From: Akkermansia muciniphila | Lineage (GTDB): Bacteria; Verrucomicrobiota; Verrucomicrobiia; Opitutales; Opitutaceae | DNA: 64,000 nucleotides | Direction: 5' to 3' | Assembly (NCBI GenBank): GCA_945888375.1 | Contig: CAMCZZ010000019.1 | Span: forward strand, 1 to 64,000 | Translations under genes and position numbers: made by a program | Part shown: positions 256 to 3,928 of the stretch, piece by piece | Position numbering within the stretch: the stretch's first letter is position 1 | Layout: each line of letters opens with the position of its first letter | The notes under the pieces: model-generated | Told to the model about the DNA's origin: nothing | What the model saw: only the letters and a program-made list of their open reading frames with translations | The model's database searches: none

Positions 256-2307
256 ATGTCCCGCCTCTCCTTCACCCTCGAAAAAACCGCGCCCGCCTCC
301 AAGGCCCGCGCCGCCCGCTTCCGCACCGCCCACGGCGAGGTCCGCACTCCCGTCTTCATGCCGGTGGGCACCCAGGCCACGGTAAAAAACATGACCGTCG
401 AGGGCCTGCGCACCCTCGACGCCCAGGTGCTGCTGGCCAACACCTACCACCTGCTGCTGCGCCCCGGACCCGAGGTGTTTAAGAAATTCGGCGGCATCCA
501 CCGCTTCATGAACTGGGACCGTCCGGTGCTGACCGACTCCGGTGGTTTTCAGATTTTCTCGCTCCCGGATTCCCGGCAAATGACCGAGGAGGGCGCCCGC
601 TTCCGCAGCTACGTCGATGGCGAGCTGTGTTTCCTCTCCCCCGAGACCAGCATCGAGATGCAGCGTGCCATCGGCAGCGACATCATGATGGTGCTCGACC
701 AGTGCATCCCCTCCACCGCACCGCACGCCGAGACCGAGGCCGCCATGCACCTGACCCATCGCTGGGCCGAGCGCTCCCTGCGCGCCCGCGGCGACTCCCC
801 CCAGGCCCTCTTCGGCATCGTTCAGGGCGCCTGCCACCCCGACCTGCGGAAACGCAGCGCCGAGTTCCTCCGCGCCCTGCCCTTCGACGGTCTCGCCATC
901 GGCGGGCTCGCCGTCGGCGAAACCCACGCCGAGCGTTACGATTTTACCGATCTGGTCACCGGCTACCTCCCGGAAAACCTGCCCCGCTACCTCATGGGCG
1001 TGGGCACACCGCTCGACATCCTTGAAGCGGTGCACCGCGGCGTGGACATGTTTGACTGCATCATCCCCTCGCAACTCGCCCAGCGCGGCACGGCCTTTAC
1101 CTCCCACGGCAAGATCCACTGCCGCCGGGCCGTGTATAAGTTTTCCGAGGAACCGCTCGACGCCCGGTGCGGTTGCCATACCTGCCGCAACCACCCCCGC
1201 GCCTATATCCACCACCTGATCAAGAGCGACGAGACCCTCGGTTGGCAGTTGCTCGCGCACCACAACATCGCGTTTTACCAGCGCCTGATGGCCGAAATCC
1301 GCGCGGCTATTTTTGACGGCACTTTCGCCGCCTACCACGCCAGGCAACGCCTAGAACTTTCGCGCGACGACGAGGCCAATCCGCCCGTGCACCCCGCCCC
1401 GGCCAAAATCCGCCGCGCACCCCGCTTGGGCGATTACGAGATCCAGACTTCGCCGCAGGGCTTTTCCAGCATCCGCCAGGTCAGCTCGGGCGAAGTCATG
1501 CACTCGGTATCCGCCCCCGCCGACGAGGCCGAACGGCTCTACGTCGCGCAATCCCGCCTGGGCGAACGCCTCCGCCGCCCCGCCGACACCGAGACCTACC
1601 CGCTGGTGCTCTGGGACGTCGGCCTCGGCGCCGCCTCCAATGCCATGGGCGCGCTCCAGCGCGCCGAGGCTGAACTCGCCGCTGCCGGCGCGACCGGCAC
1701 ACGCCCCCTGCACCTCGTGAGCTTCGAGCGCGACCTCGACCCGCTCGAGCTCGCCGCGCGGCACGCCTCGCACTTCCCCCACTTGCGCCACCGCGCGCCC
1801 CACACGCTGCTCCGCACGGGGCACTGGCGCCGCGAGGACGGGCAGATCGAGTGGCACCTTTTACGGGGGGATTTCCTTGATCTTTTCGAGTCCGCACCCG
1901 CGCCGGATATCGTTTTTTACGACCCCTTTTCGAGCAAGACCGACACCGCGCTCTGGCAGGCCGCAGTGTTTGCCCGCCTCCACTGCCACTGCCGGCCCCG
2001 CCCCGCAGCGCTCTATACCTACTCGGCGGGCACCGGCGTGCGCGCCGCACTGCTGCACGCGGGGTTTTTCGTGGCCGAAGGCGTCGGCACCGGCCCCAAA
2101 GCTGCCACCACCATCGCCTACACCACTCGACCCGATGGCGTGGAGGCCACGCGCCTGCTCGGGCCGGATTGGCTCGTGCGCTGGCGACGCAGCGGCTCGA
2201 AATTCCCAGCCGACCTGGCACCAGAAGGCCATCCCGACTTCGAACGCACGATCGAGCAGCACCCCCAATTCGCAAAGCCGGCCGGCGATAAAGGCGTCAC
2301 CGGCTGA
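256..2307 (+). CDS. tgt: tRNA-guanine(34) transglycosylase fused to an MnmC-like methyltransferase domain
   Basis: Residues 1 to about 370 are a bacterial Tgt, which exchanges G34 of GUN-anticodon tRNAs for the queuosine precursor preQ1. Visible: the DSGGFQ motif with catalytic-type D94, nucleophile-type D267 in MFDC, and the zinc site C305-x-C307-xx-C310 followed by a His about 25 residues on. The usual PTRxARxG loop after the nucleophile reads PSQLAQRG here. Residues about 390-650 are a Rossmann methyltransferase like the MnmC methylase half (DUF752): SAM motif I DVGLGAASNAMG (D454) and DPF at 556-558, matching the DGFxP position of MnmC. The FAD oxidase half of MnmC is absent. At 683 residues it is nearly twice a normal Tgt. 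The start is an ATG with a C-rich leader. The 3' end overlaps the convergent protease gene by 11 bp. The Tgt assignment is firm; the methyltransferase substrate (nm5U34) is inferred from family. Confidence 0.93.
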   Translation: MSRLSFTLEKTAPASKARAARFRTAHGEVRTPVFMPVGTQATVKNMTVEGLRTLDAQVLLANTYHLLLRPGPEVFKKFGGIHRFMNWDRPVLTDSGGFQIFSLPDSRQMTEEGARFRSYVDGELCFLSPETSIEMQRAIGSDIMMVLDQCIPSTAPHAETEAAMHLTHRWAERSLRARGDSPQALFGIVQGACHPDLRKRSAEFLRALPFDGLAIGGLAVGETHAERYDFTDLVTGYLPENLPRYLMGVGTPLDILEAVHRGVDMFDCIIPSQLAQRGTAFTSHGKIHCRRAVYKFSEEPLDARCGCHTCRNHPRAYIHHLIKSDETLGWQLLAHHNIAFYQRLMAEIRAAIFDGTFAAYHARQRLELSRDDEANPPVHPAPAKIRRAPRLGDYEIQTSPQGFSSIRQVSSGEVMHSVSAPADEAERLYVAQSRLGERLRRPADTETYPLVLWDVGLGAASNAMGALQRAEAELAAAGATGTRPLHLVSFERDLDPLELAARHASHFPHLRHRAPHTLLRTGHWRREDGQIEWHLLRGDFLDLFESAPAPDIVFYDPFSSKTDTALWQAAVFARLHCHCRPRPAALYTYSAGTGVRAALLHAGFFVAEGVGTGPKAATTIAYTTRPDGVEATRLLGPDWLVRWRRSGSKFPADLAPEGHPDFERTIEQHPQFAKPAGDKGVTG

Positions 2308-3928
2308 TCACTCCGGTCTTGCGGTTGTTGGCCGGATTCTGGTCGGTCAGCCCGGCCGGCGTGACGAGTTGAAACCGCACCGTCAACTCGCCCGCACTCG
2401 TGAACGCGGTCCGATCGAGCGGCACCTCCACTCCTGCGGACGCACCGGGCGCCAGCGCGGGCACGGCATAGCCTGAAAGCTCGCCGCCCGTGCTCGCCTC
2501 GAGGGCCAGCCCGGCGACCGTTTGCGCGCCCTGGTTTTGCACGACGACCGTGACCGTTTCCCGCGCGGGGTCATAACTTTGGCTGGTGATCGCCGGATCC
2601 ACCCGTCTCGTATCCGCCCGGGCGAGTGCCCAGCCGAGATTGACGCTGCCGTTGCCATAATCGGGGTCGGCGCCGGCCTCGCCACCGTCGTTGGCATGCG
2701 TGGTGAGGATGTCAGCCGCCTGGAGCGGGGTAAGGCCGGGGGCTTGAGATAACACCGCCGCGATCGCCCCTGCCACCACAGGTGCGCTGGCCGAGGTGCC
2801 GCTGAAACCCACCCGCGTGCCACCGAGTCCAGCGGTCTGCACCGCGTAGCCGGGCGCGGTGAGTTGCAGACTCGCGCCGGAGTTGGAGAAAATCGCCTGC
2901 CGCCCAGCTGCGTCCACCGCCCCGACCGAGACCACCCCGGGATAGGCGGCGGGCCAGGCAAGCCGGGCCGCTTGGTCGTTACCGCTCGAAGCTACCACGG
3001 CCACCCCGGCGGCGAGCGCATAGTCCACGGCATCGCCGAGCACGGCGTTGGTGGCATAACCTCCGAGGCTGATGTTAATGACCTGCACCCCGGCGTCCAC
3101 CGCTGCAAAAATGCCCTGAGCAAGGGCGAAAGCATCGCTGGCCCCGTCCGCCCCCGTCACCCGGATGCTCAGCAGACCCGCCCCCGGAGCCACCCCCCGG
3201 GCATCCGCCGAAGCCCCGGCCGCCAACGCAGCCACCGCCGTGCCGTGCCGGGCAGCGTCGCCACCGGCGAGCACGCCGTAACCGACATCCAAATACCTGA
3301 GCCGGGCCCCGAAGGTGACGTCGGCGGCGCTGCCACCATCGAGCACGGCGATGGTCACGCCCGTGCCCCAGCCCGAGTTGTCACCCTCGACTCCGAGTGC
3401 AGCGAGTAACCCGGCCCCGACCGGCACTCCGATCCGCGCCGCGCGCTCCTCAAGCGGAGGCGGATCGGCCGCCAAAATTGGATTGATGGTGACACCGGCG
3501 TAATCTTCGCCGCGGGAGCCCAGTTCGGCAACGAAAGCGGCATAATCGACTACCCGCACGCGCACGGCATTCAGCGCGTCGAGCCGGCCCAACACCGCGC
3601 AGCCGGCCGCGGCGGCGCGGCCCAGGAAGGCCCGGCGCAAGGCCTCATCCTTGAACGTCAAAACCGCCTCGTCCGCCCGGGCATCGGCGCGGTTAAATTT
3701 TTGGCGAAGCACGGCCGCAAAGGCCTCCCGATCGTCGGCGTCGAGTTCGTGCAGCGAGAATTCCAGCTCATCTTGGGAAGACGCCAAGGGCGGGATGACG
3801 CGGGCAGAGGTTGCGCCCGGCAATTGCGGCGGCCGGCGCCCAAACGCACAGCCGCGCAAACCCAACACCGCCAAGCTGGCAACCAGCAGGGCCGAAAGCG
3901 CGAGGCCGGGGGGAGGGGTGCGTTTCAT
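2297..3928 (-). CDS. S8 family subtilisin-like serine protease, exported
   Basis: A 543-residue peptidase S8. The catalytic triad is visible as D197 (VLDGG), H228 (RHGT) and S379 (GTSASAP), with oxyanion N317 (SGND). The N-terminus has a hydrophobic signal segment (residues 8-26) ending at Cys27; the LRGC sequence is only a partial lipobox, so lipoprotein anchoring is possible but unproven. Residues about 45-165 look like a propeptide/inhibitor-type region. After the catalytic domain (to about 430), residues 440-543 form a CARDB-like beta domain (VVVQNQGAQTV, DQNPANNRKT). It is a single gene, convergent with tgt. Substrate is unknown; a role in periplasmic or surface protein turnover is inference. 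Confidence 0.9.
   Translation of the reverse strand: MKRTPPPGLALSALLVASLAVLGLRGCAFGRRPPQLPGATSARVIPPLASSQDELEFSLHELDADDREAFAAVLRQKFNRADARADEAVLTFKDEALRRAFLGRAAAAGCAVLGRLDALNAVRVRVVDYAAFVAELGSRGEDYAGVTINPILAADPPPLEERAARIGVPVGAGLLAALGVEGDNSGWGTGVTIAVLDGGSAADVTFGARLRYLDVGYGVLAGGDAARHGTAVAALAAGASADARGVAPGAGLLSIRVTGADGASDAFALAQGIFAAVDAGVQVINISLGGYATNAVLGDAVDYALAAGVAVVASSGNDQAARLAWPAAYPGVVSVGAVDAAGRQAIFSNSGASLQLTAPGYAVQTAGLGGTRVGFSGTSASAPVVAGAIAAVLSQAPGLTPLQAADILTTHANDGGEAGADPDYGNGSVNLGWALARADTRRVDPAITSQSYDPARETVTVVVQNQGAQTVAGLALEASTGGELSGYAVPALAPGASAGVEVPLDRTAFTSAGELTVRFQLVTPAGLTDQNPANNRKTGVISR

Follow-up and report, generated by a model that had tools for sequence, protein, structure and literature searches.

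A variant tRNA-guanine transglycosylase fused to an MnmC2-fold methyltransferase in Verrucomicrobiota and Bdellovibrionota

The 64,000 nt stretch analyzed here (the window) is the beginning of contig C19 (CAMCZZ010000019.1) in an Akkermansia muciniphila genome assembly (GCA_945888375.1). It carries a gene for a protein in which a tRNA-guanine transglycosylase (Tgt) is joined to an MnmC-type methyltransferase (Table 1). The Tgt half belongs to a separate clade that has kept the transglycosylase site and the pocket for preQ1 (7-aminomethyl-7-deazaguanine) and has no loop arginines, and the methyltransferase half has the MnmC2 fold and lies in a clade apart. The source genome is 3.2 Mb in size and 99.5% complete. 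Contig C19 begins with the first base of the window, which puts the upstream neighborhood of the fusion gene out of sight.

Domains of the fusion protein

The sequence-only reading of this locus described a complete Tgt followed in frame by an MnmC-like methyltransferase, and this holds: the 683 aa frame is uninterrupted and matches the profiles of both domains. A frameshift or two separate proteins, including an internal start, are ruled out by the unbroken frame and by full-length homologues in other genomes, which cross the junction in one frame. The motifs DVGLG at 454 and DPF at 556 and the loop PSQLAQRG after the nucleophile were also read correctly. The Tgt half matches Pfam TGT with an E-value of 1.6e-146, and the fusion scores 451.5 bits on TIGR00430, above the curated cut-off of 306.75, so that it could pass as an ordinary tgt. 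Methyltransf_30 matches residues 526-622 (E 1.1e-10, 41.9 bits against a gathering threshold of 22) and gives 43.8 bits when residues 389-683 are searched alone. The MnmC2 model NF033855 matches residues 411-621 with 66.7 bits (69.3 for the domain alone), which is under its cut-off of 136.

Table 1. Features of the fusion gene (window coordinates; SAM, S-adenosylmethionine; pLDDT, predicted local distance difference test score)
Feature	Position	Strand	Basis
Tgt-methyltransferase fusion gene, 683 aa	256..2307	+	Single frame, ATG start; homologues fused in one frame
Tgt domain, residues 16-363	301..1344	+	Pfam TGT, TIGR00430, Foldseek, residue counts; preQ1 pocket and Zn ligands conserved
Nucleophile D267 (Zymomonas mobilis D280)	1054..1056	+	Alignment to the Z. 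mobilis chain; D in 52/52 fused or shortened copies
Altered loop PSQLAQRG, residues 271-278	1066..1089	+	Q273/Q276 at the places of Z. mobilis R286/R289
Linker, residues about 364-388	1345..1419	+	Whole-protein model, pLDDT <50 at 379-385
MnmC-type methyltransferase domain and C-terminal extension, residues 389-683	1420..2304	+	Methyltransf_30, NF033855 (sub-cut-off), model, structure match
SAM motif D454-V-G-L-G	1615..1629	+	D454, G456, L457, G458 invariant in 16 fused proteins and 23 fused domains
E491, equivalent of MnmC Glu-101 (SAM ribose)	1726..1728	+	Invariant in 16 fusions and 23 fused domains; aligned with MnmC; role from an excerpt of PMC3648344
D556-P-F558; D556 equivalent to MnmC Asp-178 (proposed general base)	1921..1929	+	D556, F558 invariant in 16 fusions and 23 fused domains; role from an excerpt of PMC3648344

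The Tgt half has a changed loop and a kept active site. We compared it with the Z. mobilis chain, numbering residues along the alignment, which agrees with V233, E235 and D280. Across 52 fused copies, some with a shortened methyltransferase half, position 273 is Gln in 35, Ala in 12, Ser in 4 and Lys in 1, and position 276 is Gln in 47, Lys in 3 and Glu in 2; neither is ever Arg. At the same positions, 93 ordinary Tgts, among them one fragment, have Arg (80) or Lys (12) and then Arg (92). The suspicion that the altered loop might change substrate choice is thus supported by the lack of Arg at either place in all 52 copies. The catalytic pair D102 and D280 of Z. mobilis is kept as D94 and D267. 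The preQ1-pocket residues D156, C158, Q203, G230, V233 and E235 are kept as D148, C150, Q190, G217, V220 and E222. V220 is found in 52/52 copies, and D94, D267 and the other five pocket residues are identical in every filled row. The Zn ligands C305, C307, C310 and H336 (C-x-C-x2-C plus His) are likewise present in 52/52, and both Cys of C-x-C are found in 55 of the 93 ordinary Tgts. The ordinary Tgts inspected from the window's family, such as L002:1516-2697 on the minus strand, are without these C-x-C ligands. Foldseek aligned the whole model to Z. mobilis TGT with TMt 0.94, and all 50 rows listed were Tgt structures.

Papers are cited here by PMC number, each from an excerpt. The recognition unit of Tgt is U33-G34-U35 (PMC4425180; PMC8136771). 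In a twisted dimer, a cavity lined by Arg286, a residue of helix alpha-B, connects the two R34/P35 pockets (PMC5395182). A literature search for R289 found nothing. Covalent intermediates of other Tgts have been trapped with 9-deazaguanine (PMC13416341; PMC8136771). The equivalents of C158 and V233 have been studied as specificity determinants for preQ1 versus queuine (PMC3660597).

In a tree of 84 Tgts built with the loop columns removed, the fused, shortened and variant unfused Tgts form one clade with a Shimodaira-Hasegawa-like approximate likelihood ratio test (SH-aLRT) value of 100 and a stem of 0.88 changes per site; the tree was made by a quick method, and two long ordinary rows adjoin the clade. 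Within the clade, the unfused variants of genomes G556, G481 and G402 form the first branch (91) and the others the second (93). Verrucomicrobial copies stand at two places in the clade, which may point to lateral transfer. The loci of shortened fusions (L022, L023, L024, L146, L148 and L149) are scattered at several places in the tree.

As the fold search with the whole model gave only Tgt structures, the second half was modelled alone. The isolated domain has a pLDDT of 93; the whole-protein model has a predicted template modelling score (pTM) of 0.55, and the mutual orientation of its halves is uncertain. The best structural match is Aquifex MnmC2 (3vyw; Z 24.6, root mean square deviation 3.1, 242 aligned residues), followed by E. 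coli MnmC (3ps9; Z 21.6) and other MnmC entries, with spermidine synthases at Z 17.5 or less. MnmC entries also head the Foldseek listing for the isolated domain. The equivalents of Glu-101, which binds the SAM ribose in MnmC, and of Asp-178, its proposed general base (PMC3648344), are both present.

The phylogenetic placement of the domain is different. In a tree of 78 methyltransferase domains, made by a quick method and containing two long rows of unsure placement, the 29 fused domains form one group (98) within a clade that they share with 18 standalone proteins (SH-aLRT 100, stem 1.31). Of these standalone proteins, 16 come from Bdellovibrionota genomes and 2 from verrucomicrobial metagenome-assembled genomes that also bear the fusion (G289 and G290). 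The joint clade lies apart from the bifunctional MnmC, MnmL-fused and lone MnmC2 groups. On NF033855, four Bdellovibrionota MnmC proteins reach 191.7-206.4 bits with their MnmC2 domains; in other Verrucomicrobiota, MnmC2-like domains that are lone or fused to MnmL score 97.5-122.9 bits and are also under the cut-off. The fused domain thus appears, from its sequence, to resemble MnmC2 in its working residues yet to be classed apart from it.

The methyltransferase half might modify another atom or RNA position after the Tgt half has inserted preQ1, or transfer another SAM-derived group. Spermidine synthases are its next structural neighbors, and the stretch after D556 differs between methyltransferase groups in the tree alignment. 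We consider this improbable, because the MnmC2 structures rank higher and the MnmC general base is kept.

Distribution of the fusion and of ordinary Tgts

When named genomes were scanned with the second half, nine relatives came up. Full-length Tgt fusions account for six of these (L003 and L005-L009); L004 and L010 are truncated at a contig end and have the Tgt tail in frame, and L011 is a short MnmC2 above the MnmC2 cut-off. By label, six of the eight fused relatives come from Verrucomicrobiota (Verrucomicrobia, Opitutaceae, Opitutae and Akkermansia) and two from Oligoflexia. The contig of L003 is as long as that of G085 in the phylum survey described next, so that these two are probably the same genome. 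A survey of 288 genomes of the window's phylum, a check that the sequence-only reading had called for, gave 73 with a match to the second half, including 11 full-length Tgt fusions and 3 with a shortened second half. Of the remaining matches, 16 were fetched; 12 of them are long frames that lack a Tgt half, the other four being short proteins. Among 290 Bdellovibrionota genomes, 152 match the second half. Their fusion rows comprise 46 with a frame of at least 520 aa and a long match, 4 shorter ones that seem to be truncated by contig ends, and 3 shortened fusions. BLAST showed the Tgt half in 29/30 fetched loci (L100-L129) and in L226; elsewhere it is deduced from frame length. G494 was rejected as a shortened fusion because its frame stops at a contig end and the remainder is on another contig. 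L003, L004, L010 and L089-L100 were left out of the alignments and trees as duplicates, fragments or repeats.

No conserved neighborhood was found: among 17 fusion loci, only one family other than the fusion is common to at least three, namely the window and two close relatives. The 19 loci of standalone methyltransferases share two small families, each common to three loci. Pfam scans of ten neighbors each revealed no queuosine or mnm gene. Phage records gave 20 matches, none covering >80% of the query, and the ten listed match in the Tgt half only; plasmids gave no match to the methyltransferase domain, and no match in viral contigs was confirmed. In the window, a subtilase-family peptidase gene (Peptidase_S8, E 3e-34; 2297-3928, minus strand) lies directly downstream of the fusion gene and convergent with it.

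The fused Tgt is an additional copy: most genomes that carry it also encode an ordinary Tgt, which lay beyond the view of the sequence-only reading. The window's genome encodes another Tgt on contig C1, 44% identical to the fused Tgt. In a 49-genome survey, 17 of the 19 genomes with a full or shortened fusion also hold an ordinary Tgt, as confirmed by its loop in all 17. None of the 30 surveyed genomes lacking the fusion has two Tgts; 29 have exactly one and G037 has none. QueA is present in 19/19 fusion genomes, so that ordinary queuosine (Q) can be made in parallel, and in 48/49 genomes overall, on which ground loss of Q synthesis was rejected as the reason for the fusion. In 49 Bdellovibrionota genomes, all 14 with a full fusion have a further Tgt (a fragment in G467). 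A number of further Bdellovibrionota Tgts, always found beside another Tgt, have the loop PTKFARGG or PTKYARGG with Lys for the first Arg (L168, L173, L177, L178, L179, L183, L184, L186, L189, L196 and L197).

Candidate substrates of the methyltransferase half

On the sequence evidence, we tentatively favor, as a quite possible account, an extra and specialized Tgt fused to its own downstream N-methyltransferase, in which preQ1 insertion is followed by N-methylation. The conserved pocket predicts preQ1 as the inserted base, and the Tgt half would exchange guanine for it at an RNA site beyond the U33-G34-U35 set of ordinary Tgt, with the changed loop selecting the RNA context. MnmC2 N-methylates the aminomethyl group of 5-aminomethyluridine (nm5U) and preQ1 bears the same group, so the same chemistry is proposed on another base: the methyltransferase half would move the methyl group of SAM to the aminomethyl nitrogen, with 7-(methylaminomethyl)-7-deazaguanosine as the predicted product. 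Methylation ahead of QueA could set this preQ1 aside from QueA. We infer that insertion followed by methylation is the most economical reading. The wider claim, that in two phyla a second wobble-type transglycosylase writes this nucleoside outside the usual GUN tRNAs with one protein carrying out both steps, is possible but rather doubtful.

The order of the two steps could also be reversed, with preQ1 or another 7-deazaguanine methylated as the free base and only then inserted by the Tgt half. Both activities are fused in one protein, and a group on the aminomethyl nitrogen of queuine points to the uracil-33 subpocket of Z. mobilis Tgt (PMC3660597), which the altered loop may be near. We give this order a slight chance, since MnmC is described as acting on tRNA (PMC3648344) and the fused Tgt has the same pocket residues as ordinary Tgts.

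A more familiar alternative is that the methyltransferase half is an MnmC2 making 5-methylaminomethyluridine (mnm5U34) in other tRNAs, with the fusion serving only to share regulation or binding of the anticodon arm. The MnmC2 fold and residues speak for it, as does MnmG, which is present in 18/19 fusion genomes (missing only in G288) and in all window-family genomes given. We counted other methyltransferases in 44 of the 50 Bdellovibrionota fusion genomes (all but G292, G364, G387, G394, G543 and G545). Another Methyltransf_30 protein of >40 bits is encoded in 38 of them; G314, G563 and G322 have weak matches only, and G429, G311 and G384 have none. In 12 of the 44, the other protein is an MnmC of 628-677 aa, four identified by profile scan and eight by a BLAST match to the MnmC1 half of L201. 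The four scanned proteins all pass the MnmC2 domain cut-off and three pass that of MnmC1, L200 being narrowly short at 169.7 against 174.2. All four stay under the cut-offs of the whole-MnmC models (e.g. 472.9 against 540). A further 7 genomes have, as the other protein, a lone MnmC2 that the tree places with MnmC (SH-aLRT 91). An MnmC or lone MnmC2 thus stands beside the fusion in 19/44 genomes, which makes nm5U34 methylation an improbable role for the fused domain. G102 has a full fusion together with MnmM. With the sub-cut-off MnmC2 score and the separate clade, these genomes leave the second half unsupported as the nm5U34 methylase that the sequence-only reading had named. Making mnm5U34 would also leave the change of the Tgt loop without a reason, and we regard it as unlikely.

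Genomes in which the two halves are separate support a functional link between the variant Tgt and the methyltransferase. G481, G402 and G556 each encode a Tgt that is unfused and has a changed loop (PTMYAQRG, PTMYAERG and PTKMAQQG, respectively), and a different contig of each carries a standalone methyltransferase. The G481 and G402 methyltransferases are in the clade of the fused domain; that of G556 is outside the tree sampling. G461 has an unfused-length variant Tgt (PSALAKRG) beside a shortened fusion.

Several findings weigh against preQ1 insertion followed by N-methylation. Beyond the 19 genomes with firm redundancy, the other protein is a standalone relative where examined, unclassified, or the long-branch protein of G291. 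In the window's family, MnmL was not found in the 25 genomes given, nor MnmM or MnmC1 in the 15 given, and no Methyltransf_30 protein was found beside the fusion in 25 genomes except for a match of about 22 bits in G271. The MnmC1 model TIGR03197 had no match over its cut-off in 34 genomes; seven weak matches, including those in G102, G125 and G190 with the fusion or its shortened form, were not counted. Since MnmEG can produce nm5U when it uses ammonia (PMC3648344), and this family has MnmG and no other nm5U methylase that we could find, nm5U34 from the MnmEG/ammonium route is a possible substrate there. The assignment as nm5U34 methylase is therefore probably wrong for the Bdellovibrionota fusions and survives in the window's own family.

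The shortened fusions are a further difficulty. Six of them (G187, G190, G199, G358, G373 and G461) end before the catalytic Asp, and the remainder is in no frame of the fetched stretches, bar one chance-level match (E about 0.7). MnmM or MnmC is present in 5 of these 6 genomes, which suits redundancy on nm5U and favors mnm5U34 formation. The same six genomes, which retain only the first part of the domain, could mean that the methyltransferase half is mainly an RNA- or partner-binding arm and that the Tgt half alone matters. This we hold to be very unlikely, as 16 full-length fusions and 23 fused domains show no variation in the SAM-site and catalytic residues.

The link to a second, specialized Tgt also has exceptions. 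G289 and G290 have the fused Tgt only, which may there have to serve Q34 too. Two Tgts are found in 14 of 31 Bdellovibrionota genomes lacking the fusion: nine have a PTKFARGG/PTKYARGG-type copy and three a variant unfused Tgt, G304 and G295 being the others. Two Tgts alone are thus no marker of the fusion in that phylum. In eleven genomes with a standalone relative of the methyltransferase one Tgt was found, and the ten Tgts fetched all have both loop Arg; the methyltransferase clade is thus not tied to the variant Tgt. Lastly, the interpretation of the loop leans on R286 and R289 reading U33 and U35 in the RNA complex 1Q2R, which is our presumption.

Comparison with known systems

Titles and abstract openings of mostly open-access literature on Tgt, MnmC, preQ1 methylation and fusions mention no such protein and no N-methyl preQ1 in RNA. 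For this pathway, the excerpt of a review on natural nucleosides names preQ0, preQ1, oQ, Q, GalQ, ManQ, GluQ and G+, with no N-methyl preQ1 among them (PMC7694415). The term m6preQ1 is defined in one of the papers listed as the O6-methyl compound. This architecture, in which a methyltransferase is linked to a Tgt clade, is a variant of known enzymes that is absent from the titles and abstract openings searched. Domain content and residues suggest that the bacteria bearing the fusion make a modified RNA base not yet described, and that the aminomethyl N-methylation module known from mnm5U has been reused on a 7-deazaguanine. Under our proposal, a specific RNA nucleoside should exist and the Tgt should act on a new RNA target; if found, the nucleoside would be a new kind of modification.

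The fusion shares with bacterial Tgt of the queuosine pathway (TIGR00430) the fold, both catalytic Asp, the preQ1 pocket and the Zn ligands. Unlike it, the fusion is without both loop arginines, forms its own clade, occurs mostly beside an ordinary Tgt and carries a C-terminal methyltransferase. With the MnmC2 domain (NF033855; 3vyw and 3ps9) it has in common the fold, the SAM motif, the E491/D556 pair and an EVMHS stretch that aligns with an N-terminal stretch of MnmC2. It differs in scoring 66.7 bits against the 136 required, in its separate clade, in having Tgt as partner instead of MnmC1 or MnmL, and in its coexistence, in 19/44 genomes, with MnmC or a lone MnmC2.

The MnmL-MnmC2 fusions of other Verrucomicrobiota (L025, L028, L033 and similar) resemble the Tgt fusion in joining an MnmC2-type domain to another wobble-base enzyme. 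Their N-terminal half, however, is a radical-SAM MnmL/YtqA, which was found in none of the 19 Tgt-fusion genomes. Among the 12 long MnmL-like frames in L025-L040, the radical-SAM half was identified in the five frames scanned with Pfam and MnmL/YtqA in the three scanned with NCBIfam. The standalone Bdellovibrionota methyltransferases are the nearest relatives found of the fused domain, within the fully supported joint clade. They differ in being unfused, and accompany an unfused variant Tgt in G481, G402 and G556 and a single Tgt in eleven genomes.

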